Shown here: positions 16,732-30,290 of the stretch, piece by piece
Layout: each line of letters starts with the position of its first letter
How positions within the stretch are numbered: the first letter of the stretch is position 1
Origin: Parvivirga hydrogeniphila
GTDB taxonomy: Bacteria; Actinomycetota; Coriobacteriia; Anaerosomatales; Anaerosomataceae
DNA: 64,000 bases
Assembly (NCBI RefSeq): GCF_023371205.1
Contig: NZ_JAMCCO010000001.1
Coordinates: 1,050,662 to 1,114,661, forward strand
Direction: 5' to 3'
Notes under the pieces: model-generated
Databases searched by the model: none
The model's input: only the letters and a program-made list of their open reading frames with translations
Told to the model about the DNA's origin: nothing
Translations under genes and position numbers: made by a program

Positions 16732-18921
16732 ATGCGTACACATCCCGGATGCAGAGCCATCGTGGCGGTATTCGTCACGCTGATGTGCGTCAGTCAAGCA
16801 GGTCTGCCGAGGGCGGCGGCCATGTCGGCAGCTCCGGTAAGACCTGTCGGCGGCGAAGGCAAGCCGGCCGCGCAAGCGATCCGAAAAGGAGCGTCCGCCG
16901 TCGTATCGGGGGGCGGGATCGATCCGTGCGCGCTCCCGGGCGCCGTGGATCTTCCTGCGTCGCCTGTCGCCGGCGAGCTGGATGCGGCCACGAAGGTCGC
17001 GGACGTGTATCGCGTGTCTCTGAGCGGAGGCGTGCGCTTCGCGTGCACACTCGAAGGCGACGCGGGCCTCGATGCGGACGTGTACGTGTTTCCGTCGGGC
17101 GCGACGGAGATCGACCCATCGGCCGCGTACGCAGGCACGGTCGGAGATGCCTTCCCGAAGACGCTTACGTTCGACGTGCGGCCTGGGGCAGATAGCGACT
17201 ACTACATCGTCGTGCGAACGGTCAGCGGCAAAGGCACGTACGCTCTCGCTTGGTCGACGTGCGCGATGCCTGGTTCGGCAGACGACGACATAGCCGGGAC
17301 GGCCCTTCCCAGCAGGGACGGCGCGCTTTCGGGCGCTTTGTCGTGGCCGACAGACACGTACGACGTCTTCAGTATCGATATGGCGCAAGGAGAGCGCATC
17401 GAAGCGACGCTGCACGGCCCTGGTGGATGCGATTATGACGTGCTGCTGTATGGGCCGAGCGCGACGAGCGTGTACACAGACCTGCCGGTGGCTGGCTCGG
17501 CCGGGTCCGGACCGGACGAGCGGCTGCTCCACGATGTCATGGCCGGAGAAGGGGGGACCTACTTCCTCGCCGTTCGCTCGGTTCGAGGGTCGGGTGAGTA
17601 TGGGCTTGTGTGGGCTGTTTCCAAGATTCCGGAGGGTGCGTGGGAAGACTTCGATACGGCACCGGTGCTCACGGACTCTTCGGGGGCTCTGCTCGGGACG
17701 CTCGATCGCTCTAGCGATGTGAACGACGTCTTCAAGGTGTCGTTAAGCGCTGGGCAGCGCCTGAGCGTGCTGCTTGACGCTGAGTCCGGAACGGACTTCG
17801 ATCTGTACCTGCACTCACCGGACGGATCGCGCGTCTTGGCGTTCGCGAACGGATCAGCGTATCCGGAGTTGCTGATCTTCGATGGTGCGTCCGATGGTAT
17901 GTACTTCATCGAGGTGCGCGCGTTCAGCGGAGCTGGTGCATATCGGTTGGAGTGGTCGATCGGGGCCACGCCGGTGTTCTCCTCCGCTGAGAGGCTCTCA
18001 GGGGCTGATCGGTACCTCACGGCCGTAGCGGTCTCCAAAGCCACGTTTCCTGCAGGGTCCGCGGCCTCCGTTGTGCTCGCGAGCGGGGAGGTGTTCCCCG
18101 ACGCACTGTGTGCTTCTGCGCTCGCCGGATGCCTCGATTCGCCGGTCCTGCTCACGCGAGGGACCTCATTGCCGGCTGCAGTGCTTGCCGAGATCGGGCG
18201 TCTCGGAGCCGGACGAGTGTACATCGTCGGTGGGCCTGCAGTCGTGTCGGACGGTGTGAAGACCGCACTTGCGCAGGCCGGTCTCACGGTGGAGCGCGTG
18301 TACGGGTCTGACCGATACGACACCGCGAAGGCGGTCGCTGCCAAGGTGCGCGCGCTCAGAGGCACGTCGTTCGGCGCCCAGGCGTTCCTGGTACGCGGTG
18401 ACCAGTTCCCTGACGCGCTGTCTGCATCGGCGGCTGCGTGGGCATTGAAGATGCCCATCCTGCTGACGCGGTCGACGGTGCTGCACCCGTCGGCGCGGGC
18501 GGCCATCGTGGCGAACGGCATCAGAGACGTGTACATCGTCGGTGGCACCGGGGCGGTCTCCGACGCGGTGAAGGGAGAGGTCAGCGGTCTTGTGAGCGGA
18601 GCGGTGCAGAGACTTGCTGGTCAAGACCGGTATGCCACGGCCAAGGCGGTCGCCGCATACTCGCTCAGGTACTACTGGCTCGAGCCGAGCGTCGTGTACG
18701 TGGCACGGGGCGATCAGTTCCCCGATGCTCTTGGTGGCGGAGTTGCGGCCGGCAAACAGAATGCGGCGCTCTTGCTTACCGATCCGAAGACTCTAAGTCC
18801 AGCAACGCGCGAGTACCTTGGTGCGAACAAGGGCGTGATCACGGCAGGGCGCATCGTCGGAGGAACAGCGGCGGTCTCCGATGGCGTCAAGGCTGAAATC
18901 GAGGGCGTATTGAAGCCGTAG
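16732..18921 (+). CDS. Secreted surface protein with PPC-like domains and three CW_binding_2 repeats
   Basis: 729 aa from ATG 16732 (SD GGGAGGG). A signal peptide (about 1-30, ending PRAAA) is followed by three tandem beta-domains of the pre-peptidase C-terminal type (about 70-175, 185-300, 310-415; each with KVSLSAGQRLS-like and DFDLYLHSPDG-like strands). Three CW_binding_2 (PF04122) repeats follow (about 420-515, 515-622, 623-729), each with RLSGADRYLTA-type, GEVFPDAL-type and VYIVGGPAVVS-type motifs. These repeats anchor proteins non-covalently to wall teichoic-type polymers. No catalytic domain is seen, so it is probably an S-layer-like or adhesin protein. Confidence 0.9.
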   Translation: MRTHPGCRAIVAVFVTLMCVSQAGLPRAAAMSAAPVRPVGGEGKPAAQAIRKGASAVVSGGGIDPCALPGAVDLPASPVAGELDAATKVADVYRVSLSGGVRFACTLEGDAGLDADVYVFPSGATEIDPSAAYAGTVGDAFPKTLTFDVRPGADSDYYIVVRTVSGKGTYALAWSTCAMPGSADDDIAGTALPSRDGALSGALSWPTDTYDVFSIDMAQGERIEATLHGPGGCDYDVLLYGPSATSVYTDLPVAGSAGSGPDERLLHDVMAGEGGTYFLAVRSVRGSGEYGLVWAVSKIPEGAWEDFDTAPVLTDSSGALLGTLDRSSDVNDVFKVSLSAGQRLSVLLDAESGTDFDLYLHSPDGSRVLAFANGSAYPELLIFDGASDGMYFIEVRAFSGAGAYRLEWSIGATPVFSSAERLSGADRYLTAVAVSKATFPAGSAASVVLASGEVFPDALCASALAGCLDSPVLLTRGTSLPAAVLAEIGRLGAGRVYIVGGPAVVSDGVKTALAQAGLTVERVYGSDRYDTAKAVAAKVRALRGTSFGAQAFLVRGDQFPDALSASAAAWALKMPILLTRSTVLHPSARAAIVANGIRDVYIVGGTGAVSDAVKGEVSGLVSGAVQRLAGQDRYATAKAVAAYSLRYYWLEPSVVYVARGDQFPDALGGGVAAGKQNAALLLTDPKTLSPATREYLGANKGVITAGRIVGGTAAVSDGVKAEIEGVLKP

Positions 18922-19277: not shown

Positions 19278-19627
19278 GTGCAGGAGACGTCGGCCGTTCT
19301 GTTCGCTGCAGGACTGGTCCTTGGGCCGGCAGCGTTCCTCATGGTGCTTCTCGGCCTGCAGCGCCTCCTTGCGCCGAGCCGGCCTGATGAGGTGAAGCAG
19401 AGCGCATTCGAGTGCGGCATCCCGCAGGCCGACACGCCGTGGAAACCGTTCAACGTACGGTTCGCTGGCATCGCAGCGCTGTTCGTGATCTTCGACGTGG
19501 AAAGCGTGCTGCTGTTCGCCGTGGCGCCGCGCGTGAGAGGGTCTGCCATCGGTGTCGTGGAGGTCAGTGCATTCGCTGCTCTCGTCGCTGTCGGCCTGCT
19601 CTACGCCTGGAAGAAGGACCTGCTGTC

Positions 19628-19640
<13 letters not shown>
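19278..19640 (+). CDS. nuoA: Complex I subunit NuoA
   Basis: 120 aa from GTG 19278 (SD AAGGGG). Three transmembrane helices frame the conserved loop [15 protein letters not shown], whose Cys marks the Q-site loop of NuoA, and [23 protein letters not shown]. It is a membrane-arm subunit next to the quinone site. First gene of the nuo operon; the next gene starts 13 nt before its stop. Confidence 0.95.
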
Positions 19641-20238
<598 letters not shown>

Positions 20239-20242
<4 letters not shown>

Positions 20243-20700
20243 GGATCGAGGAGCTGCGCGAGCGCGTGTGCGCGATGTACCCGGACCTGTGCCCGCTGTT
20301 CTCCATCGAGTTCGGCGACGGAACGATCGCCGTCCCTCGTGAGCGGATCCACGCGGCTGCGGCCGACCTGAAAGACATGGGGTTCGACCGCCTCGGGATG
20401 GTCACCGCGGTCGATCGAGGCGACGAGTTCGAAGTCGTGTATCGCCTGCAATCGCGGCGTCTCGCTGCAGGCATGTTCTTGAAGACGGCCGTCCCGTACT
20501 CGGAGCCGACGGTTCCCACCATGTGCGACCTCTGGCCGGCGGCGAACTGGCAGGAGCGCGAGGTCTACGACCTGTTCGGCATCATCTTCGAAGGACACCC
20601 GGACCTGCGCCGGATCCTCCTCCCGGAGGACTGGGTGGGGCACCCGCTGCGCAAGGACTACGAGGACGAGCGGATCATCCGCAGGCCGGACTACATCTAG
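20239..20700 (+). CDS. nuoC: Complex I subunit NuoC
   Basis: 153 aa from GTG 20239. The conserved 30-kDa-subunit end is present: [33 protein letters not shown], then GHPLRKDY. It is part of the peripheral arm and is separate from NuoD here, not fused. The start lies in the GTGA overlap with nuoB. Confidence 0.94.
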
Positions 20701-20709
20701 GTGGCGACG

Positions 20710-21807
20710 ATGGCGACGGAAGAACTCACGTTGAACATCGGCCCATCGCACCCCTCAACCCATGGGGTGTGTCGGCTGATCGTTCGCCTTGACGGCGAGA
20801 TCGTCACGCACGTCGAGCCCGTCATCGGACACTTGCATCGCGGTATCGAGAAGATGGCGGAGAACCGCACGTACCTGCAGGTGGTGCCGCTCACCGACCG
20901 CCTCGACTACGTGGGTTCGATGTACGCGAACTGGGCCTACTGCCGTGCCGTCGAACGGCTTGCTGGCATCCGCGTCCCAGAGCGAGCGGAGTACATCCGG
21001 GTGATCGTCTGCGAGCTCCAGCGCATCGCGAGCCACATGATGGGCATCGGCTCGAGCGCATCAGATACTGGGGCGACGTCGGCCTTCCTGTACGCCTTCG
21101 TGCAGCGAGAGATGGTTGTCGACCTGTTCGAAGCGCTCTGCGGGGCACGGCTGACGTACAACTACGTGCGTCCGGGCGGCGTTGCGTTCGACCTGCCAGA
21201 CGGCTGGGTCGAGCAGTGCCGCGCTTTCGTCGCTCAACATCCGGCCGCCATGCTCGAGATCGACGAGTTCTTCTTCGGGAACGCGATCGCGCGTGCCCGT
21301 CTCAAAGGAATCGGCGTGCTCGATGCCGAGACCGCCGTAGCGTGGGGCGTCTCCGGGCCATCTGCGCGCGGCTCCAGCGTTGACTGGGATTTGCGCCGCG
21401 ACGATCCGTACTCCGTCTACCCGAGGTTCGACTTCGACGTTCCGCTGGGATCCAACGGCGATTGTTACGACCGAGCGCGCGTGCGGCTGTGGGAGTGCAT
21501 CGAGAGCTGCCGCATCATCGAGCAGGCCCTCGACCAGATGGAGCCCGGTCCCATCATGGCAGATGGGCTGCCGCGGCTTCTCGCCCCACGGCCGGGCGAT
21601 GCGTACGATCACATCGAGAGCGCTCGCGGCTCGCTCGGCGTGTACCTTGTGAGCGACGGCTCGGCGCGCCCGTACCGGATGAAGGTCCGCTCTCCCGCGT
21701 TCTGTAACTTGGCCGTGCTTCCCCAGATCGCCGTTGGTCACACGCTCTCTGACCTGCTCGTGATTCTCGGCTCTCTCGATCCGGTCTTCGGGGAGGTCGA
21801 CCGATGA
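20710..21807 (+). CDS. nuoD: Complex I subunit NuoD
   Basis: 365 aa. ATG 20710 is favoured by SD AGGTGG 5 nt away; GTG 20701 would add three residues. The 49-kDa subunit signatures NIGPSHPSTHGVCRL (quinone-site loop His), GHLHRGIEKMAE and the C-terminal GSLDPVFGEVDR are all present. With NuoB it builds the quinone pocket. It overlaps nuoH by 4 nt (ATGA). Confidence 0.95.
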   Translation: MATEELTLNIGPSHPSTHGVCRLIVRLDGEIVTHVEPVIGHLHRGIEKMAENRTYLQVVPLTDRLDYVGSMYANWAYCRAVERLAGIRVPERAEYIRVIVCELQRIASHMMGIGSSASDTGATSAFLYAFVQREMVVDLFEALCGARLTYNYVRPGGVAFDLPDGWVEQCRAFVAQHPAAMLEIDEFFFGNAIARARLKGIGVLDAETAVAWGVSGPSARGSSVDWDLRRDDPYSVYPRFDFDVPLGSNGDCYDRARVRLWECIESCRIIEQALDQMEPGPIMADGLPRLLAPRPGDAYDHIESARGSLGVYLVSDGSARPYRMKVRSPAFCNLAVLPQIAVGHTLSDLLVILGSLDPVFGEVDR

Positions 21808-22754
21808 CGTCGTTCCTGCTGGGTCTTGCCTGGGGCATCGCTGGGGTGCTCGTGATCGCTGGCGGCGCGGTCATCGGCGTGTGGTGGGAGCGCAAGGTCG
21901 CAGGCCGGATACAGCTGCGCTACGGTCCACAGCAGATCGGCCCTGCCGGTTCGCTGCAGATGATCGCCGACGTGCCGAAACTGCTCTTCAAGGAAGACGT
22001 CGTGCCGTTGGCTGCCGATCGCCCGCTCTTCAAGTGGGCCCCGCTCGCAGTCTTCGCACCCGTCGCTGCCGCGATGGCCGTGATCCCGTTCGTGAAAGGG
22101 TGGGCGCCCTTCGACACGAGCGTGGGCATCCTCTTCTTCTTGGCCGTGCCGTCGTTGGAAGTGGTCGCCATCCTGGTCGCAGCGTGGGCGCAGCGCAACA
22201 CGTACTCCGCGCTCGGCGGTCTGCGCGCCGCATCGCAGATGATCGCGTACGAGGTGCCGCGTGCGCTGTCGGTGGCTCCGCTCGTGCTGCTCGCCGGATC
22301 GCTCAGGCCGGTGGACGTCGTGGGTTCCTGGCGATGGTGGTGGCTCCCGCTGCTGGCGCTTGGGTTCCTCGTGTATGTCATCGCGTCCATCGCTGAGATG
22401 AACCGCGGCCCGTTCGATCTGCCTGAGGCCGAGTCCGAACTGGTGGCGGGCTACTTCTCCGACTACTCCGGTATGCGCTGGGCCATCTTCATGATGGCCG
22501 AGTACGGGGCGATCATCACTGCGAGCCTCTTCGCTGCGGCGACGTTCCTTGGATGCGGGTGGCCGTTCGACGGAGCCGTCGGTGTGGTCGCGCTGATCGC
22601 CAAGACAGCGCTTCTAGTCACCGTGGTGATGTGGGCGAAGTGGACGCTTCCGCGCGTCCGTCAAGACCAGCTGCTGCGGTTCTGCTGGACGGTGCTCGTG
22701 CCTGCCGCTCTCGTGCAGCTCGCGATCGTCGGGGTGGTGCTTCCGTGGCTGTGA
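21804..22754 (+). CDS. nuoH: Complex I subunit NuoH
   Basis: 316 aa with about eight transmembrane helices. It has the family loops ERKVAGRIQLRYGPQQIGP, EMNRGPFDLPEAESELVAGY and WAKWTLPRVRQDQL. It links the quinone pocket to the proton-pumping arm. The last 4 nt (GTGA) hold the start of the fused NuoI gene. Confidence 0.95.
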   Translation: MTSFLLGLAWGIAGVLVIAGGAVIGVWWERKVAGRIQLRYGPQQIGPAGSLQMIADVPKLLFKEDVVPLAADRPLFKWAPLAVFAPVAAAMAVIPFVKGWAPFDTSVGILFFLAVPSLEVVAILVAAWAQRNTYSALGGLRAASQMIAYEVPRALSVAPLVLLAGSLRPVDVVGSWRWWWLPLLALGFLVYVIASIAEMNRGPFDLPEAESELVAGYFSDYSGMRWAIFMMAEYGAIITASLFAAATFLGCGWPFDGAVGVVALIAKTALLVTVVMWAKWTLPRVRQDQLLRFCWTVLVPAALVQLAIVGVVLPWL

Positions 22755-24787
22755 GAGATGAGTTCCCGAAGGTCCCAGAGAGCGTCTCGGGGCTTCCTGG
22801 TGAGAAGCAGGGCCTTGTGCAGGCGGCGAAGTCGATAGCCAAGGGCTTCTCGATCACCGTGAAGGCTGCCGCCACCACGCCGCTGACGGTGAAGTACCCG
22901 AAGGAGCGGTTGACGCTGAGCCCGAGGTGGCGCGGCCCGCTCGCGTTGCGCGGGGTGCTCGGTAGGGACGAGGTCCCGCTGTTGAGAGCGCCCTCGTTCG
23001 AGTACAACGAACTGATCGACGGCCTGTACCGGAAAGACCGTCTCCCGCCCTGCGTCGGGAATTGCCCGGCGAACGTGGACGCTCGCGGACAGGCGTACCT
23101 CATCGCGGACAATCGCGTCGCAGAGGCGTACGAGCTCGTGCGCGACCGCAACATCCTGCCTGGAGTGCTCGGCCGCATCTGCCACCACCCGTGCGAAAGC
23201 GCGTGCAAGCGCAACTTCTACGACGAGCCGATCGCCATCCGTCCGCTGCACCGGTTCGCGTTCGAGGAGTACCGGAAGATCCGGCACGAGCGCGTCTCGC
23301 CGCTTCCGCGGACGCAGGGCAAGAGCGTGTGCATCATCGGGTCAGGCCCGTCTGGGCTTGCTGCGGCGTACGACCTGCTGAAACTCGGCTATCGCGTCGT
23401 CATGTACGAGCGCGAACGCAAGCCAGGAGGCGCGCTCAACACGGGTGTCCCGGCATACCGCCTGCCGCGCGAGGTCCTCTACGAGGAGATCGACGACATC
23501 GTCGGTCTGGGGCTGGAATTGAACACCGGCGTCGAGGTCGGCAAGGACGTGCCGCTTGCGAAGCTCATGCGAGAGCACGATGCTGTTCTGCTCGCCGTCG
23601 GTCTCCAGCAGAGCAGGCTGCTGCCCATTCCGGGCACGGACGCCGAAGGTGTCGTGGGGGCGCTCGAATTCCTGTGGTCCGCGAACTTCAAGCATGATGC
23701 TGGCGTCCGCGGCAAGCGGGTGCTCGTCATCGGCGGCGGCAACGTCGCAGTGGACGTCGCGCGGTGCGCGTTGCGCGTGGGAGCAGCCGAGGTGAAGCTC
23801 GCATGCCTGGAGTCCGAGAACGAGATGCCCTGCCACCCATGGGAGATCGCGGAGGCGCTGGACGAGGGCGTGACGGCCCTGTGCTCGCTCGGTCCGGAAG
23901 AGGTGCTCACGAAGCAGCACCAGGTCGTCGGCATGCGCATGCGATCGTGCCTCTCGGTATTCGACGAGGCCGGTCGGTTCGCACCGAAGTTCGGCGACGA
24001 GACCACGGACATCGCTGCAGACGTCATCGTCTTCGCAATAGGGCAGGCCCCGAAGATCGACTCGCTCATCGCGGGTACCGAGCTCCTCGTGAGCGGGCGG
24101 GGCCAGCTCGTCGTGGACGGCACGCTCTTCACGACCTCGGTCGAGGGCGTGTTCGCGTGCGGCGAGATCGTCACGGGGCCGGGCAGCGCCATCGGCTCGA
24201 TCGCCACGGGCCACGAGGCGGCGACATCGATCCACCGGTACCTTCAGGGGATGGCGCTCGACGGCGACCGCGTAGCGCGCCCCGTGCCGGTGTATCCGAA
24301 GCACGCGTCGGCGGACACGCGCGGCATCGAGTCCAACCGGCGGCGCGCCGAGATGCCGGTCGCAGACCCCGCTGAGCGTGCGACGGACTTCAGGCAGGTG
24401 GAGCTCGGACTGACGCGGCAGGAGGCGATGGCCGAGGCCATGCGTTGCTTGCGGTGCGAGTCCGAGATCTGCGTCGGATGCACGTTCTGCGCTCGGACGT
24501 GCCCCGACTACGCCATCACCGTCGAGCGTGTCGACGAAGCGGGCGCCCGATGCCTGACGCGGTACGATCTCGACTTGTCCAAGTGCTGCTTCTGCGGACT
24601 GTGTGCTGAGCAGTGCCCGACGAAGGCGCTTCACCACACCGGCCAATACGAGCTGTCGTTCTGGCATCGTGACCTGATGGTCTTCGATAAGGGCGAGATG
24701 CTGCGGCCGCCGACAGGCACGCGTGCCACTGGCAGAGACGGCATCTCGCCGCCCGGGTGTCCGGTACCGCGAAGGGAGGGCGAATGA
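22751..24787 (+). CDS. NuoI split by a GltD/NfnB-like FAD oxidoreductase: fused complex I electron-input subunit
   Basis: 678 aa from GTG 22751 (GTGA overlap with nuoH; GTG 22745 is possible). Residues 21-70 look like the NuoI N-terminus (SIAKGFSITVKAAATTPLTV, then YPKERLTLSPRWRGPLAL). Then comes a complete GltD-like unit: Fer4_20 cysteines C101, C105, C144, C148 and C152; FAD fold IGSGPSGLAAA (196-206); NAD(P) fold GGGNVAVDVARCA (328-340). The MRCLRCE motif (564-570) leads straight into the NuoI ferredoxin core: C574/C577/C580/C584 and C613/C615/C618/C622 (C612 is an extra Cys; which one binds is unclear), closing with GQYELSFWHRDLMVFDKGEML. After the NAD(P) fold the usual YRR pair is CLES, which argues for NADH over NADPH. 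The operon has no other nuoI and no nuoEFG, so this protein probably feeds electrons into N6/N2. Confidence 0.92.
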   Translation: MRDEFPKVPESVSGLPGEKQGLVQAAKSIAKGFSITVKAAATTPLTVKYPKERLTLSPRWRGPLALRGVLGRDEVPLLRAPSFEYNELIDGLYRKDRLPPCVGNCPANVDARGQAYLIADNRVAEAYELVRDRNILPGVLGRICHHPCESACKRNFYDEPIAIRPLHRFAFEEYRKIRHERVSPLPRTQGKSVCIIGSGPSGLAAAYDLLKLGYRVVMYERERKPGGALNTGVPAYRLPREVLYEEIDDIVGLGLELNTGVEVGKDVPLAKLMREHDAVLLAVGLQQSRLLPIPGTDAEGVVGALEFLWSANFKHDAGVRGKRVLVIGGGNVAVDVARCALRVGAAEVKLACLESENEMPCHPWEIAEALDEGVTALCSLGPEEVLTKQHQVVGMRMRSCLSVFDEAGRFAPKFGDETTDIAADVIVFAIGQAPKIDSLIAGTELLVSGRGQLVVDGTLFTTSVEGVFACGEIVTGPGSAIGSIATGHEAATSIHRYLQGMALDGDRVARPVPVYPKHASADTRGIESNRRRAEMPVADPAERATDFRQVELGLTRQEAMAEAMRCLRCESEICVGCTFCARTCPDYAITVERVDEAGARCLTRYDLDLSKCCFCGLCAEQCPTKALHHTGQYELSFWHRDLMVFDKGEMLRPPTGTRATGRDGISPPGCPVPRREGE

Positions 24788-25278
24788 GCGCCCAGATCGC
24801 CGGGCTTGCGCTCGCCATCGCGCTCACCGTCGTGGGCGCTATCGGTGCTGTCCTTGTGCGGGAGGTCATGCGCGCGATGATCTCGCTTGGGGCGTTCCTC
24901 TTCGGCGTCGCTGCGATGTACGCGTACCTGGGATACAGCTTCCTTGCTGTCGCGCAGGTGTTCGTGTACGTCGGCGGCGTCCTCGTCCTGATGGTGTTCG
25001 CGGTGATGACTGCGCGGCGCGCTGATTCCGAACGCCCGGCGCTTGTGAGCCGTCACGACGTCGGCTCGGCGGCCGTGGCTGCTGGCGTCGGCGCGATGCT
25101 GTTCTTGAGCTTGCGCACGGCGTTCGCGGGATCGGCCGTGGCGGTGTCGGCGAATTCGTCCGACCTCGCAGCGGAGCTCTTGGGCCCCCGGCTCGTCGCG
25201 TTCGAGGCAGCAGGCGTGTTCCTGCTCGTAGCGCTGGTCGCGGTGGGGGTCATCGTGAAAGGCGGGGAGGACCGATGA
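24784..25278 (+). CDS. nuoJ: Complex I subunit NuoJ
   Basis: 164 aa, five predicted transmembrane helices. The NuoJ core SFLAVAQVFVYVGGVLVLMVFAVM includes the pi-bulge helix. It starts at ATG 24784 in an ATGA overlap with the fused NuoI gene and ends in an ATGA overlap with nuoK. Confidence 0.93.
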   Translation: MSAQIAGLALAIALTVVGAIGAVLVREVMRAMISLGAFLFGVAAMYAYLGYSFLAVAQVFVYVGGVLVLMVFAVMTARRADSERPALVSRHDVGSAAVAAGVGAMLFLSLRTAFAGSAVAVSANSSDLAAELLGPRLVAFEAAGVFLLVALVAVGVIVKGGEDR

Positions 25279-25571
25279 TCGCGCTTGGGCTTTCGTGCGC
25301 GCTGTTCTCGCTGGGGCTCTACGCGGTCCTGAGCAGACGGGACGTCATCGGCGTGCTCGTCGGCGTCGAGGTGATGATGGGCGCAGGCAGTCTGCTGCTC
25401 GCGACGCTCGGCGCGGCAGCGGGGGCAGCGTCCGGCACCGTGCAGGCGATCGGCGCGTTGCTGCTGGTGGTCGCGGCGGGCGAGGCCGCGGTAGGGCTCG
25501 CGCTCTTGCTGGCGCTGTACCGGACCTCAGGTCGCACCAGGATCGACGAGCTGAACGAGGTGAGCGGGTGA
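25275..25571 (+). CDS. nuoK: Complex I subunit NuoK
   Basis: 98 aa, three transmembrane helices. Conserved GVEVMMGAGSLLL and AAGEAAVGLALLLALYR carry the two buried Glu residues of the proton path. Coupled to nuoJ (ATGA) and nuoL (TGATG). Confidence 0.93.
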   Translation: MIALGLSCALFSLGLYAVLSRRDVIGVLVGVEVMMGAGSLLLATLGAAAGAASGTVQAIGALLLVVAAGEAAVGLALLLALYRTSGRTRIDELNEVSG

Positions 25572-27382
25572 TGGGCGTTCTTGCGGCTGCCATCGGGCTC
25601 CCGCTCGCTCTCGCGCTGGTCATCGCGCTTGGCGGTGCGCGAGCGGTGCGCGTCACGCAGGTGCTCGCGCTCGCAGGGCCGATCGGCGCTCTGATCGCCG
25701 GCGTCGAGCTCGTGGGCCGGGTGCGCCACGGCGCCACGGTCTCGCTCATGGGGGGAGGGCAGAGCGCAGGATCCGCGACGGGCGTCCTGTTCGGCTTCAC
25801 CGGAGACGCGCTCGGTGCGCTCATGCTTGTTGTGGTCGGCGTGGTCGCGGCGTGCGTCGTCGCGTTCTCGTGGGGCTACATGGCTCACGAAACGGGGCGT
25901 CCGCGGTACTTCGCAGTGCTGATGCTGTTTGTGGCGGCGATGTCGATCCTCGTGCTCGCCGACAACCTCGTGACGCTCTTCGTGGGATGGGAGCTCGTCG
26001 GGGCGTGCTCGTACCTGCTCATCGGCTTCTGGTACCGCAAGCCGGCCGCGACGAGCGCGGCGATCAAGGCCTTCATGACGACACGCGTGGGCGACGTGGC
26101 GATGCTCGCCGGCATGGCGCTTCTGTGGAGCCGCGCACAGACGCTCGACTTCAACGGGATCTTCGCCTCGGTCCCGACGCTGCCCGCGGGCGCGGTGACC
26201 GCGTCAGCGCTGCTCCTGTTCGTCGGAGCGGCGGGGAAATCAGCGCAGTTCCCGCTCCACATCTGGTTGCCGGACGCGATGGAAGGACCGACGCCGATCT
26301 CCGCGCTCATACACGCCGCGACGATGGTGGCTGCGGGCGTCTTCCTCGTGGCTCGCACGTGGCCGCTCTTCGCGGCGAGCGGCGCTGCGCGGACGACCAT
26401 GTTGGGGGTGGGGGTGCTGACGGCGGCGTACGCGGCGGTCGTGGCCTTGGCGCAAACGGACATGAAGAAGATGCTCGCGTACTCCACGATAAGCCAGCTC
26501 GGGTTCATGTTCGCGGCGCTCGGCGCTGGAGCGTGGGGCGCGGCGATGTTCCACCTGACGACGCACGCCGCGTTCAAGGCGCTGCTGTTCTTGGCGGCGG
26601 GCAGCGTCATCCATGGGGCTGCGACGCAAGACATCCGCGGGATGGGCGGGCTTGCACGGTCCATGCCGGTGACGGCCGCCTGCTGGACGGCGGGCGCTCT
26701 GGCGCTCTCGGGCTGGTGGCCGTTCGCGGGATTCTTCTCGAAAGACGCTGTCGTGGCGGCCGTGGGCGAGGTCTCGCCATTCGCCTCAGCAGTGCTCCTC
26801 GCGACGAGCGCAGTGACTGCGTTGTACATCTGGCGCGCGACGGCCTCCGCGTTCTTCGGCGAGCCGCGCGGCGAGAAGCACGCGCACGAGTCAGGCAGCA
26901 CGATGACGGCGCCGCTGGTGCTGCTCGCAGCGGGGGCCCTCGTGCTGGGATGGGCAGGCAGGCCGCTGCTCGAGCTCGTAGGCGCGCAGGAGGCGCACGC
27001 GAGCGCAGCGATGATCGCGAGCGCCGTGGTAGCGGTCGCTGCTGGCACTGCTGCCGCGTTCGCGTGGTCCTCGCGTGACGCTGGGCGCAATGAGGCCTTC
27101 GCGGCCGGCCGGACGTGGGAGCTCCTGCGAAGCGGACTTGGCGTGGACGGAGCGATCCAGGCGATCGCGGTCCGGCCGGTGTTGGCAGTGGCTCGCTGGG
27201 TGGAAAGCACCGGGGATCGTCGCATCATCGATTGGGCGGCCGAGGGGCTCGGCAGGGCCGCGACCGCGATCGGCGGTGCGCTGGCTGCGCTCCAGACCGG
27301 TGAGACGGACGTCTACGCGTCGTTCGTGGCGGTCGGTTTCGTCGTGCTTTCCGCGATCGTGCTGTGGGCAGGAGGGCGGTGA
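25571..27382 (+). CDS. nuoL: Complex I proton-pumping subunit NuoL
   Basis: 603 aa, near the usual 610, with about 15-16 transmembrane helices. Key pump motifs: WELVGACSYLLIGFWY (Glu), GAAGKSAQFPLHIWLPDAMEGPTPISALIHAATMV (Lys and His-rich segment), and KKMLAYSTISQLGFM. The C-terminal part holds the amphipathic lateral-helix region. It starts at ATG 25571, overlapping the nuoK stop by 1 nt. Confidence 0.94.
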   Translation: MGVLAAAIGLPLALALVIALGGARAVRVTQVLALAGPIGALIAGVELVGRVRHGATVSLMGGGQSAGSATGVLFGFTGDALGALMLVVVGVVAACVVAFSWGYMAHETGRPRYFAVLMLFVAAMSILVLADNLVTLFVGWELVGACSYLLIGFWYRKPAATSAAIKAFMTTRVGDVAMLAGMALLWSRAQTLDFNGIFASVPTLPAGAVTASALLLFVGAAGKSAQFPLHIWLPDAMEGPTPISALIHAATMVAAGVFLVARTWPLFAASGAARTTMLGVGVLTAAYAAVVALAQTDMKKMLAYSTISQLGFMFAALGAGAWGAAMFHLTTHAAFKALLFLAAGSVIHGAATQDIRGMGGLARSMPVTAACWTAGALALSGWWPFAGFFSKDAVVAAVGEVSPFASAVLLATSAVTALYIWRATASAFFGEPRGEKHAHESGSTMTAPLVLLAAGALVLGWAGRPLLELVGAQEAHASAAMIASAVVAVAAGTAAAFAWSSRDAGRNEAFAAGRTWELLRSGLGVDGAIQAIAVRPVLAVARWVESTGDRRIIDWAAEGLGRAATAIGGALAALQTGETDVYASFVAVGFVVLSAIVLWAGGR

Positions 27383-28830
27383 CGGTGACGCTCCTTGCGC
27401 TGATCGTGCTTCCGTTCGCAGGCGCCCTCGTCGTCGCGCTTGCCGGCGAGCGGGTCGTCCGGTCGCGAGCGCTCGCGCTCGCAGTCGCGCTCGTCGAATG
27501 CGCTGTGGCGACCCTGGCCATCGCGGACATGGCAGGCCGCTCGGTACCGTCGCTGTCGTGGGCGCCCGGAGGCGTCCTGGGCGCTGTCCCGCTCTCGCTC
27601 GGGCTCGATGGGCTGAGCGCCCCGCTCGTGGCGCTCACTGCGGGTCTCTCGCTTGTCGCCGTCCTCGCGTCGTGGGGAGTCGAGGATCGGCCGCGAGCGC
27701 ACCACGCGCTGCTGCTCGCGCTGGAAGGCGCTGTGGTGGCAGTCTTCCTCGCAGCAGACCTCGTCATGTTCTATGTGGCCTGGGAAGCGGTGCTCATCCC
27801 GATGTACTTCTTGATCGGTCTGTGGGGACACGAGCACCGCCAGCACGCGGCGATGAAGTTCTTCCTCTTCACGTTCGTGGGCTCGGCGCTCATGCTCGTG
27901 GGGATCCTCATCGTGATAAGCAACCTCGGCACGACGGTGTTGGCCGACGTCCCGCGGGTGCTTCCACGCACGACGCAGAACCTCGTGTTCTGGCTGATGG
28001 CAGCCGGCATGCTCGTGAAGCTGCCCGCGTTCCCGCTACACACCTGGCTTCCGGACGCCCACGTGGAAGCTCCCACCGCCGGCTCGATCATGCTCGCTGG
28101 AGTGCTGCTCAAGATGGGCGGATACGGCCTGATGCGTGTGGCCGCACCGCTTGCGCCGGCCGCATTCGCGGACGCAGCGCCTGTCCTCTTCGCGCTCGGG
28201 GCGATCGGCGTCGTGTACGGTGCGCTGGCAGCGCTCGCACAGACCGACCTGAAGCGCCTCGTCGCGTACTCGTCTGTCGCACACATGGGATTCGTGCTCG
28301 TCGCGCTTGCCGCTGGTTCTGAGAGCGGGTATGTCGCCGCGATGCTCGTCATGGTGAGCCACGGGCTTGTGGCCGGCCTGTCGTTCTTCCTGGTGGGTTC
28401 GCTCGCTGAACGGACGCACACGAGGAGCATCCCCGATATTGGAGGTCTGGCGACGACGATCCCGCGCTGGTCGGTCGTCTTCGTGTTCGCGGCCCTGGCC
28501 AGTCTGGGGCTTCCAGCACTGTCGGGGTTCCCAGGCGAGCTCCTGTCGGTCCTGGAGGGGTTCCGGGTCTTCGGGTGGTGGACGCTGGCCGTCATCGTGG
28601 GCGTTCTTCTAGCAGCGACCTACAATCTGTACGCCGTGCGATCGGTCGTCTACGGAGAACCGATGGAGTGCTGGGCGTCACTGACTGACATCGGAGCGCG
28701 CGAGATGCTGGCGGCTGCCCCGCTCGTGGCGGGCATCGTCGCGCTCGGCGTGTGGCCGAGAATCCTCACTGCGGTGACCGCGCCGGCGGCGCAGGCGATC
28801 GTGCTGCTGATCCAAGGGGGTGCGCGGTGA
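27379..28830 (+). CDS. nuoM: Complex I proton-pumping subunit NuoM
   Basis: 483 aa, about 14 transmembrane helices. VAWEAVLIPMYFLIGLWG carries the pump Glu, KLPAFPLHTWLPDAHVEAPT and KRLVAYSSVAHMGFV the lysine sites. GTG 27379 gives a GTGA overlap with nuoL, while GTG 27385 sits at a better distance from SD AGGAGG (27370-27375), so the first two residues are uncertain. Confidence 0.94.
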   Translation: MTVTLLALIVLPFAGALVVALAGERVVRSRALALAVALVECAVATLAIADMAGRSVPSLSWAPGGVLGAVPLSLGLDGLSAPLVALTAGLSLVAVLASWGVEDRPRAHHALLLALEGAVVAVFLAADLVMFYVAWEAVLIPMYFLIGLWGHEHRQHAAMKFFLFTFVGSALMLVGILIVISNLGTTVLADVPRVLPRTTQNLVFWLMAAGMLVKLPAFPLHTWLPDAHVEAPTAGSIMLAGVLLKMGGYGLMRVAAPLAPAAFADAAPVLFALGAIGVVYGALAALAQTDLKRLVAYSSVAHMGFVLVALAAGSESGYVAAMLVMVSHGLVAGLSFFLVGSLAERTHTRSIPDIGGLATTIPRWSVVFVFAALASLGLPALSGFPGELLSVLEGFRVFGWWTLAVIVGVLLAATYNLYAVRSVVYGEPMECWASLTDIGAREMLAAAPLVAGIVALGVWPRILTAVTAPAAQAIVLLIQGGAR

Positions 28831-30290
28831 GCGCCCTGTCGAGCATAAGCGGCATGCTGTGGCTTCCCGGCGCAGCGGTGCTTGCGGCCGGTGCTGCAGC
28901 ACTCCTCGTGGATGCGTTCGGGCGACCTGGGCTCGGCACGGCGCTCGTCGGTGCCGCTGCTGTGCTGGCGTCCGTGCTGTGTGCCGCGAGCGCCTCGGAC
29001 GGGACCATCGCCGAAGTAGTGCCGGGCATCCTTGGCGGCGGAGGGCTCGCGGGCGCGGCCGCCGTGATCTACCTCCTCTCAGCAGCGTCGCTCGTGACGG
29101 GGCTGCGGAACGTGCCTGGATCCCGTCGCGGCGGGGTCGCCGCGCTGATCGGTGTGGCGGCGGTGGCGTCCCAAGCGCTCGCCGGTGCTGCAGATGCGCT
29201 CGTCATGGCCATCGCGCTCGAGACCATCGCCATCGCGAGTTTCGGGATCGTGGCCGCTGGCCGCGGGAAGGCATCGCGCGAAGTCGCGATCCGGTACTTC
29301 GTACAGGCGTCGGTGGCCGTCGGACTCCTCGTCTTCGGCCTTGCGGGCATCGTCGGCCTCGGGGGAGGCGCCACCGGCTACAACGAGCTCGTGCAGGCGA
29401 TGTCGTCTGCGCCTGCCGCCGCGGCAAGCGTCCTCGGCGTGCTGCTCTTGGCCGCCCTCGCGTTCAAGGCCGGTGCATTCCCGTTCCACTCGTGGGTTCC
29501 CGACGTGTACGGGGTTCTCGAGCCGGAAGCCGCCGTGTTCGTCGCAGGCGCACCGAAGATCGCCGCGGTCCTCGCGCTGTGGTTGCTGTTCGCACGAAGC
29601 GTGTGGGCAGGCGAGGCGTTCCGCAACGTGAGCGTCGCGATCGGTGTCGCCGCTGCCGCATCGATCATCGTCGGCAACTTCGGTGCTCTCAAGCAGCGCG
29701 ATCTCGGCAGGATGCTCGGCTATTCGGCGATCGCACAGGTCGGATACGCGCTTATCGGTGTTTCCTCCCGAGCAGTCGGCACCCCGCTTCTCGTCGTCTC
29801 ATATGCGGCGGCCGTCGCTGTGGCGTTCGGGTGCCTCGCAGCGCTCAGGTCCGAAGCGGGGGATCAGGCCACGCTCGAGAGCGTTGCTGGCGTGGCGTTG
29901 AAGCGTCCCGTCCTGGCTGGGACGACCGCCGTTGCCATGCTTTCCCTTACGGGCGTGCCGCTGACGGTCGGGTTCCTCGGCAAACTGTTCGTGTTCTACG
30001 GCGCCGTCTCAGGGGGCTGGACGTGGCTCGCGCTCATCGGCGCGATCGGCTCCGTCGTGTCCTTCGGCTACTACGGACGGGTCATCCAAGCGATGTACTT
30101 CGCTGAGCCTATTGCGGCACCGGATGAAACGTCGCAGAGCGGCGCTGCACCGTTCGACTCAGCATCGCCATCGCCTACCGGTCGCGCACGCGTGTGGCCG
30201 TTCGCGATACTGGCAGCGATGCTCGTCGCGGCGGGAACAGTCCCGCTCGTGACCGGTTTCGAGTGGCTGCTTCGCCTGTTCACGGTGTAG
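28827..30290 (+). CDS. nuoN: Complex I proton-pumping subunit NuoN
   Basis: 487 aa, about 14 transmembrane helices. ALETIAIASFGIVA carries the pump Glu. KAGAFPFHSWVPDVYGVLEP and QRDLGRMLGYSAIAQVGYALIG give the lysine sites. Last gene of the operon; GTGA overlap with nuoM. A 220-nt gap with a promoter, hairpins and a terminator follows. Confidence 0.93.
   Translation: MSALSSISGMLWLPGAAVLAAGAAALLVDAFGRPGLGTALVGAAAVLASVLCAASASDGTIAEVVPGILGGGGLAGAAAVIYLLSAASLVTGLRNVPGSRRGGVAALIGVAAVASQALAGAADALVMAIALETIAIASFGIVAAGRGKASREVAIRYFVQASVAVGLLVFGLAGIVGLGGGATGYNELVQAMSSAPAAAASVLGVLLLAALAFKAGAFPFHSWVPDVYGVLEPEAAVFVAGAPKIAAVLALWLLFARSVWAGEAFRNVSVAIGVAAAASIIVGNFGALKQRDLGRMLGYSAIAQVGYALIGVSSRAVGTPLLVVSYAAAVAVAFGCLAALRSEAGDQATLESVAGVALKRPVLAGTTAVAMLSLTGVPLTVGFLGKLFVFYGAVSGGWTWLALIGAIGSVVSFGYYGRVIQAMYFAEPIAAPDETSQSGAAPFDSASPSPTGRARVWPFAILAAMLVAAGTVPLVTGFEWLLRLFTV

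Follow-up and report, generated by a model that had tools for sequence, protein, structure and literature searches.

We analyzed a 64,000-nt stretch of the Parvivirga hydrogeniphila genome (the window: RefSeq assembly GCF_023371205.1, contig NZ_JAMCCO010000001.1, positions 1,050,662 to 1,114,661 of the forward strand) and found that the gene in the nuoI position of its complex I (nuo) operon encodes a chimeric NuoI with a GltD/NfnB-type flavoprotein nested inside it. From its sequence, this protein of an anaerobe probably has two roles in an 11-subunit complex I, the respiratory proton pump: it would be the N6a/N6b subunit and also the enzyme's own NADH dehydrogenase. The open-licence literature that we searched holds no report of a NuoI-GltD fusion.

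A flavoprotein nested within NuoI

The gene is a single unbroken reading frame on the + strand. A first reading made from the sequence alone, referred to here as the sequence-only reading, had given it a span of 22751-24787 (678 aa); the end of that span holds, whereas the start is more likely the GTG at 22745 (680 aa), because orthologues have a common N-terminus (MAV or VAV). The frame runs a few bases into both neighbors, over the stop of nuoH (22752-22754) and the ATG of nuoJ (24784), in keeping with an operon. Its parts, all on the + strand, are as follows.

22745..24787, +: NuoI-flavoprotein nested fusion, 680 aa; homology-based start GTG 22745, from orthologues
22745..22954, +: NuoI N-terminal part, residues 1-70, with helix 20-42 and a T..YP.E...S.RWRG.L.L segment (NuoI profile model, PDB profile, AlphaFold2 helix)
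22955..23044, +: linker, residues 71-100, [RK]GV[LM]G...[YF]N..I......LPPC, similar in groups A and B (see below; aligned translations)
23045..23278, +: Fer4_20 domain with cysteines 103, 107, 146, 150 and 154 and His169 (Pfam PF14691, E 2.4e-18)
23324..24211, +: FAD and NAD(P)H Rossmann domains, Pyr_redox_2 (Pfam PF07992, full length; fold match to StnC, Z 44, and NfnABC, Z 45)
23804..23812, +: C354-L355-E356, Y-R-R in NADPH-type relatives (alignment including 9bov/8oh5; predicted NADH selectivity)
24434..24457, +: EAMRCLRC motif (C568, C571), a GltD-type extra cysteine pair just before the NuoI clusters (invariant cysteines)
24440..24709, +: NuoI C-terminal part with the N6a/N6b motifs, C576, 579, 582, 586 and C614, 617, 620, 624 (TIGR01971, 88 bits; PDB, ~1e-23)

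The N-terminal 70 residues were assigned no Pfam name. A hidden Markov model of the NuoI N-terminal half, made from 30 ordinary actinobacterial NuoI proteins, gave the fusion's N-terminus 36.1 bits and matched all 61 of 61 fusion N-termini, whereas 3,050 shuffled sequences reached 9.3 bits at most. Similarly, a profile of the fusion N-terminus matched only NuoI/NDUFS8 chains of complex I in the PDB (E from 4.2e-10 down to 0.13). These residues are NuoI, as the sequence-only reading had claimed. At the other end, TIGR01971 (NuoI) matches residues 570-649 with 88.4 bits, and a C-terminal profile aligns with NuoI/NDUFS8 chains at ~1e-23, reaching past the two ferredoxin motifs into the NuoI tail; the fusion has both CxxCxxCxxxCP motifs and this NuoI-specific tail. 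On the cluster motifs alone, polyferredoxins outscore NuoI slightly in the same profile comparison. A generic ferredoxin tail of the PRK12771 type was rejected on the basis of that alignment beyond the clusters and of the PRK12771 relatives, which lack the NuoI N-terminus.

Between these flanks, residues 97-560 form the flavoprotein, in which Pfam finds Fer4_20 and a complete Pyr_redox_2, together with Fer4_7, and NuoI resumes at 565-655. The best NCBIfam match is NF009410/PRK12771 (residues 95-628), and scores against models of GltD, the glutamate synthase small subunit, fall far under their curated cut-offs. A single-chain AlphaFold2 model has a mean predicted local distance difference test score (pLDDT) of 79.7, with the flavoprotein modelled confidently. 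Its best PDB fold matches are NfnABC-A (Z 45) and StnC (Z 44), followed by NfnB, GltD and DPD; the list contained no NuoI chains, having been filled by flavoprotein domains, and is uninformative on that point. By sequence, the best PDB match of the flavoprotein is 9bov (1.8e-91). The proposed GltD-type unit is thus present in its Fer4_20, FAD and NAD(P) folds, but its Fer4_20 has five cysteines rather than the full NfnB set, and the homology to NfnB holds with the qualification that the closest solved flavoprotein is StnC/NfnABC-A. NuoI was also thought to resume exactly at its two [4Fe-4S] motifs; the C-terminal part is indeed NuoI, with the EAMRCLRC motif preceding the clusters. In ordinary NuoI a short stretch leads from the RxxGRHxL segment to the first cluster motif, and in the fusion this stretch is ~500 residues long. 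With NuoI on both flanks, the arrangement is nested rather than end to end.

Operon and genome context

The fusion lies between nuoH and nuoJ in an operon of the order nuoABCDH-[I]-JKLMN, confirming that it fills the nuoI slot. Pfam identified nuoA-D, nuoH and nuoJ, and the gene order was matched in other genomes. The neighboring genes are listed here.

19278..19640, +: nuoA (Pfam PF00507)
19628..20242, +: nuoB, N2 ligands present (Pfam PF01058)
20239..20700, +: nuoC, start approximate (Pfam PF00329)
20701..21807, +: nuoD, without hydrogenase CxxC (profile matches)
21804..22754, +: nuoH (Pfam PF00146)
24784..25278, +: nuoJ (Pfam PF00499)
25275..25571, +: nuoK (open reading frame; reference in operon comparison)
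25568..27382, +: nuoL, start approximate (open reading frame; matches in other genomes)
27364..28830, +: nuoM (open reading frame; matches in other genomes)
28830..30290, +: nuoN, start approximate (open reading frame; matches in other genomes)

NuoB keeps the N2 ligand motifs (CC, GNC, GCPPRPE), and an Ech/Mbh-like [NiFe] hydrogenase identity is ruled out by the lack of CxxC in NuoD. None of NuoE, NuoF and NuoG is found among the open reading frames of the window operon, and no NuoF-family match exists across the whole genome of strain Es71-Z0120 (order Anaerosomatales, class Coriobacteriia; 1,840,996 bases, 9 contigs, 99.99% complete), in which control searches were positive. The absence of NuoE/F/G that had been assumed is borne out to this extent. 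The window operon holds no further candidate input subunit beyond the fusion.

Plain NuoI is likewise absent from the window operon, and the only other NuoI of the genome sits in a second full nuo operon (A, B, C, D, H, I, J, K, L, M, N; G000:C2, locus L152, 4318-14467). That operon has a plain 160-aa NuoI and no adjoining input gene that we recognized; the 1.84 Mb genome thus codes for two differing complex I-like enzymes. In its passages on complex I, the published description of P. hydrogeniphila gives the loci as NuoACDHJKLM and NuoNMLKJIHDCBA, with NuoEFG lacking (PMC9686372). Because the L152 locus with its plain NuoI fits the second listing, the locus published without NuoI is probably that of the window. 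Upstream (5′) of the window operon, positions 16732-18921 encode a secreted-looking protein of 729 aa, with repeats that by eye resemble cell-wall-binding repeat 2.

Conserved ligands and predicted nucleotide specificity

Cofactor positions were compared in an alignment of 21 fusions. A tree of the flavoprotein gives three groups: A (Anaerosomatales, L058, L059, L061 and L161), B (family f46) and C (families f31 and f45). The same 15 cysteines occur in all 21 of 21 fusions: five in Fer4_20, C568 and C571, and the eight of the NuoI motifs. They form one continuous set of conserved cofactor ligands beside N6a/N6b, where the sequence-only reading had placed a flavin.

The nicotinamide motif differs between the groups. 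In Rossmann domains, an acidic residue replacing the arginines at this motif usually indicates NADH. Group A has C-L-E (M-L-E in L161, S-L-E in a few rows), compared with Y-R-R in group B and L160; the genome's own NfnB-like protein, L002, also carries Y-R-R and is NADPH-type. Because of this replacement of arginines by an acidic residue, the fusion of the Anaerosomatales lineage is predicted to select NADH, and those of group B and L160 are predicted to be NADPH-like. The NAD(P)H donor first envisaged would accordingly still be a nucleotide, narrowed to NADH in this lineage.

Residue 169 is His in group A, Lys in groups B and C, and Glu in L002. It aligns with K170 of StnC, an equivalence taken from the PDB profile alignment; the FAD-proximal cluster has Lys170 as a ligand in StnC and a Glu in NfnB (PMC10482914). 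The arginine that contacts N5 is conserved as R239. StnC has the same arginine and does not bifurcate electrons (PMC10482914).

Proposed electron path and alternatives

We propose that the N-terminal helix of NuoI, together with its two-cluster C half, folds as an ordinary NuoI would on NuoB, NuoD and NuoH, and that the flavoprotein, placed in the loop that immediately precedes the N6a motif, takes the site at which NuoG/NuoF attach in 14-subunit enzymes. NADH would reduce the predicted FAD, which would pass electrons to a putative [4Fe-4S] cluster on C107/C146/C150/C154, with His169 near, and from there to a second cluster with C103, C568 and C571. Electrons would then run through N6a, N6b and N2 to quinone, coupled to proton pumping, and the direction may be reversible, with quinol and the proton-motive force reducing NAD+.

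The insert is most simply read as the electron input because the genome lacks NuoF and the operon lacks any other candidate input subunit. The proposal is further supported by the recurrence of the fusion in the nuoI slot across lineages, with NuoI on both flanks; by the invariance of the 15 cysteines, together with natural pairs of plain and fused NuoI in family f46; by the match of the FAD and NAD folds to StnC/NfnABC-A, where the same GltD module supplies electrons to a cluster chain of the NuoG type; and by the retained N2 motifs of NuoB and a NuoD without the hydrogenase CxxC.

Several observations weigh against it. The whole-protein score is below the curated cut-off both for TIGR01971 (88.4 versus 113 bits) and for PRK12771/NF009410 (455 versus 516 bits), as a chimera would give; since the insert interrupts the TIGR01971 model, that shortfall points to a NuoI-containing chimera rather than plain NuoI. 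In the single-chain model, pLDDT is low over both NuoI flanks. Quinones were undetected in the two isolates (PMC9686372). Finally, L158 and L159 (see below) remain fused despite the loss of their NAD(P) domain, so the insert is not always a nucleotide oxidoreductase. As a separate observation, despite the undetected quinones the P. hydrogeniphila genome encodes a futalosine-pathway homologue, VitK2_biosynth (MqnA/MqnD; L191, G000:C2:405174-405941).

The strongest of the alternatives, though still unlikely, is that the same enzyme runs mainly in reverse, with menaquinol from an H2-uptake hydrogenase or from formate oxidation, and the proton-motive force, reducing NAD+ for biosynthesis. Complex I is reversible in general. 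P. hydrogeniphila can use Fe(III) to grow on H2 or formate, and its uptake hydrogenase belongs to group 1i (PMC9686372); against this, many uncultured relatives whose lifestyle is unknown also keep the fusion.

It is less probable again that ferredoxin is the donor and the inserted flavoprotein a side branch that also moves electrons between ferredoxin and NAD(P). The passages of PMC9686372 on complex I propose reduced ferredoxin for complexes without NuoEFG, but these passages do not mention the insert in NuoI. The fusions of L158 and L159, which keep FAD and clusters without an NAD(P) domain, and the plain-NuoI complexes of sister genomes would suit such a donor; however, Anaerosomatales and most other lineages have a complete NAD(P) domain and conserve the nucleotide motif.

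A bifurcating or confurcating complex I, in which the FAD splits or merges electrons of NADH and ferredoxin as in NfnB, was raised in the sequence-only reading and now appears very improbable. The flavoprotein is homologous to NfnB and conserves R239, but StnC, with the same arginine, does not bifurcate (PMC10482914), the glutamate ligand of NfnB is replaced by His or Lys, and the operon holds no NfnA-like partner (the genome beyond the operon was not searched for NfnA). An assembly or gene-calling artefact joining two genes has next to no likelihood, and the assembly join flagged at the outset is ruled out, since in-frame full-length orthologues of 60-93% identity occur in dozens of independent genomes.

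Distribution and possible exchange of the nucleotide module

A full-length fusion is present in 60 of 69 sampled Anaerosomatales genomes, with two of these fusions truncated at contig ends; in the nine genomes that lack it, all remaining matches are of the plain-NuoI kind. No fusion was found in the sampled genomes of the remaining Coriobacteriia, where two matches lack the NuoI N-terminus. Outside the order, the fusion occupies the nuoI slot in an Elusimicrobia bin (L058), in Candidatus Geothermocultor (L059, Aquicultoria), in L061 and in families f46, f54, f31 and f45, with the operon order nuoBCD-[fusion]-AHJK in f31 and f45. Among 396 sampled Actinomycetota genomes, there were additional full-span matches (matches only) in f74, f78, f88, f93, f96 and f98, bringing the fusion to about ten actinobacterial families beyond Anaerosomatales. 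The nuo operon and fusion of the Elusimicrobia bin (contig DHVG01000002.1) group with Actinomycetota, the nearest being G621 at 57% identity, which suggests lateral transfer or mis-binning.

Family f46 holds both forms. L163 and L166 have plain NuoI of 159-168 aa and L153-L157 are fused, with identical operon order and similar flanks.

L163 7839-8342 and L166 8319-8795: plain NuoI of f46, counterpart to fused L153-L157

In a tree of NuoBCDH, L163 and L166 fall among the fused members of f46 (group B), so that loss or regain must also have occurred. The flavoprotein tree rejects one single fusion clade (approximately unbiased test, p 0.01). Domain-wise trees, made by a quick method on short alignments and supporting the A-B grouping only modestly, place the two together for Fer4_20 (Shimodaira-Hasegawa-like approximate likelihood ratio test, 80) and within a wider clade of A, B and PRK12771 for the FAD domain. 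For the NAD(P) domain, B and L160 group with NfnB/GltD-type sequences. The linker that follows RxRG is similar in A and B. Because A and B join in Fer4_20, whereas B joins NfnB/GltD-type proteins in its NAD(P) domain, these trees suggest a single framework in which the nicotinamide domain was swapped, rather than independent insertion. Alternatively, insertion may have been repeated at the same site.

Two further fusions, of 503 aa each (L158 2560-4068 and L159 5611-7119), lack the NAD(P) domain and keep the FAD domain, Fer4_20 and the NuoI parts; in L158, the Pyr_redox_2 match spans only 1-121 of 291. Their operon order is nuoBCD-[fusion]-AHJK, and in L159 genes for L, M and a second L were also read. 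Taken together, these variants lead us to a broader idea, a 'flavo-complex I', for which we see about even chances. The nucleotide-oxidizing module would be an interchangeable cartridge in NuoI, swapped between NADH and NADPH types, deleted (L158/L159) or gained and lost whole (L163/L166), and the 11-subunit enzyme would be a docking platform whose donor changes by recombination.

Among the other matches, a group B-like fusion (G525:C30:18934-20853) has one in-frame TGA within the match and may be a pseudogene or reflect a sequencing error. In several relatives (e.g. G033:C50, G029:C198, G026:C30 and G025:C15), a gene for a PRK12771-type flavoprotein lies ~10 kb or less from a NuoF-family gene; these neighbors are perhaps another bifurcating complex.

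Significance and comparison with known systems

An open question in the field is what donates electrons to 11-subunit complex I, for which no shared donor protein has been found (PMC11238625). If our reading is true, this donor is covalently attached, visible in the sequence and present in a cultivated strain, which would explain how a complex I without the usual NADH-binding subunits is supplied with electrons. Complex I would then have solved NADH input a second time, by unrelated means, with a simplified single-chain input arm useful for structural work. Natural NADH-like, NADPH-like, domain-less and insert-free versions are available for comparison.

In gene order and subunits, the operon equals nuoABCDHIJKLMN of Desulfitobacterium hafniense, which also has no NuoEFG (PMC11238625); the direct donor of that complex is unknown (PMC11238625), whereas an input flavoprotein is built into the NuoI of Parvivirga. 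The Q and P modules are shared with 14-subunit complex I. In contrast to the latter, the operon has no NuoE/F/G, the genome has no NuoF-family match, and input would take place via an unrelated flavin fold. The closest free-standing relatives of the insert are the PRK12771/NF009410 flavoproteins, which have the C-terminal two-cluster layout and the CLE motif in common with it but lack the NuoI N-terminus, starting at about residue 97 of the fusion. Unlike bifurcating NfnB, with its Glu ligand at the FAD-proximal [4Fe-4S] cluster, the fusion has His169.

The nearest parallel is with StnC of the Sporomusa-type StnABC transhydrogenase (8oh5) and with NfnABC-A (9bov, 9n5u), in which a GltD-type FAD/NAD(P) unit with [4Fe-4S] clusters is likewise nested in a complex-I-type Fe-S chain and feeds it; in StnC the unit lies within a NuoG-like chain (PMC10482914). 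StnC, like the fusion, has no Glu ligand at the proximal cluster. In those proteins, however, the host chain is NuoG/FdhF-like and belongs to a soluble transhydrogenase, whereas the fusion has NuoI as its host and lies in the operon of a membrane complex I; its flanks being NuoI, it has neither the NuoG-like [2Fe-2S] nor the FdhF-like domains. Furthermore, StnC is NADPH-type, and the fusion of the Parvivirga lineage has an NADH-like motif. By analogy, StnC is a mechanistic precedent, in which the same module feeds a complex-I-type cluster chain from another host subunit in another complex.

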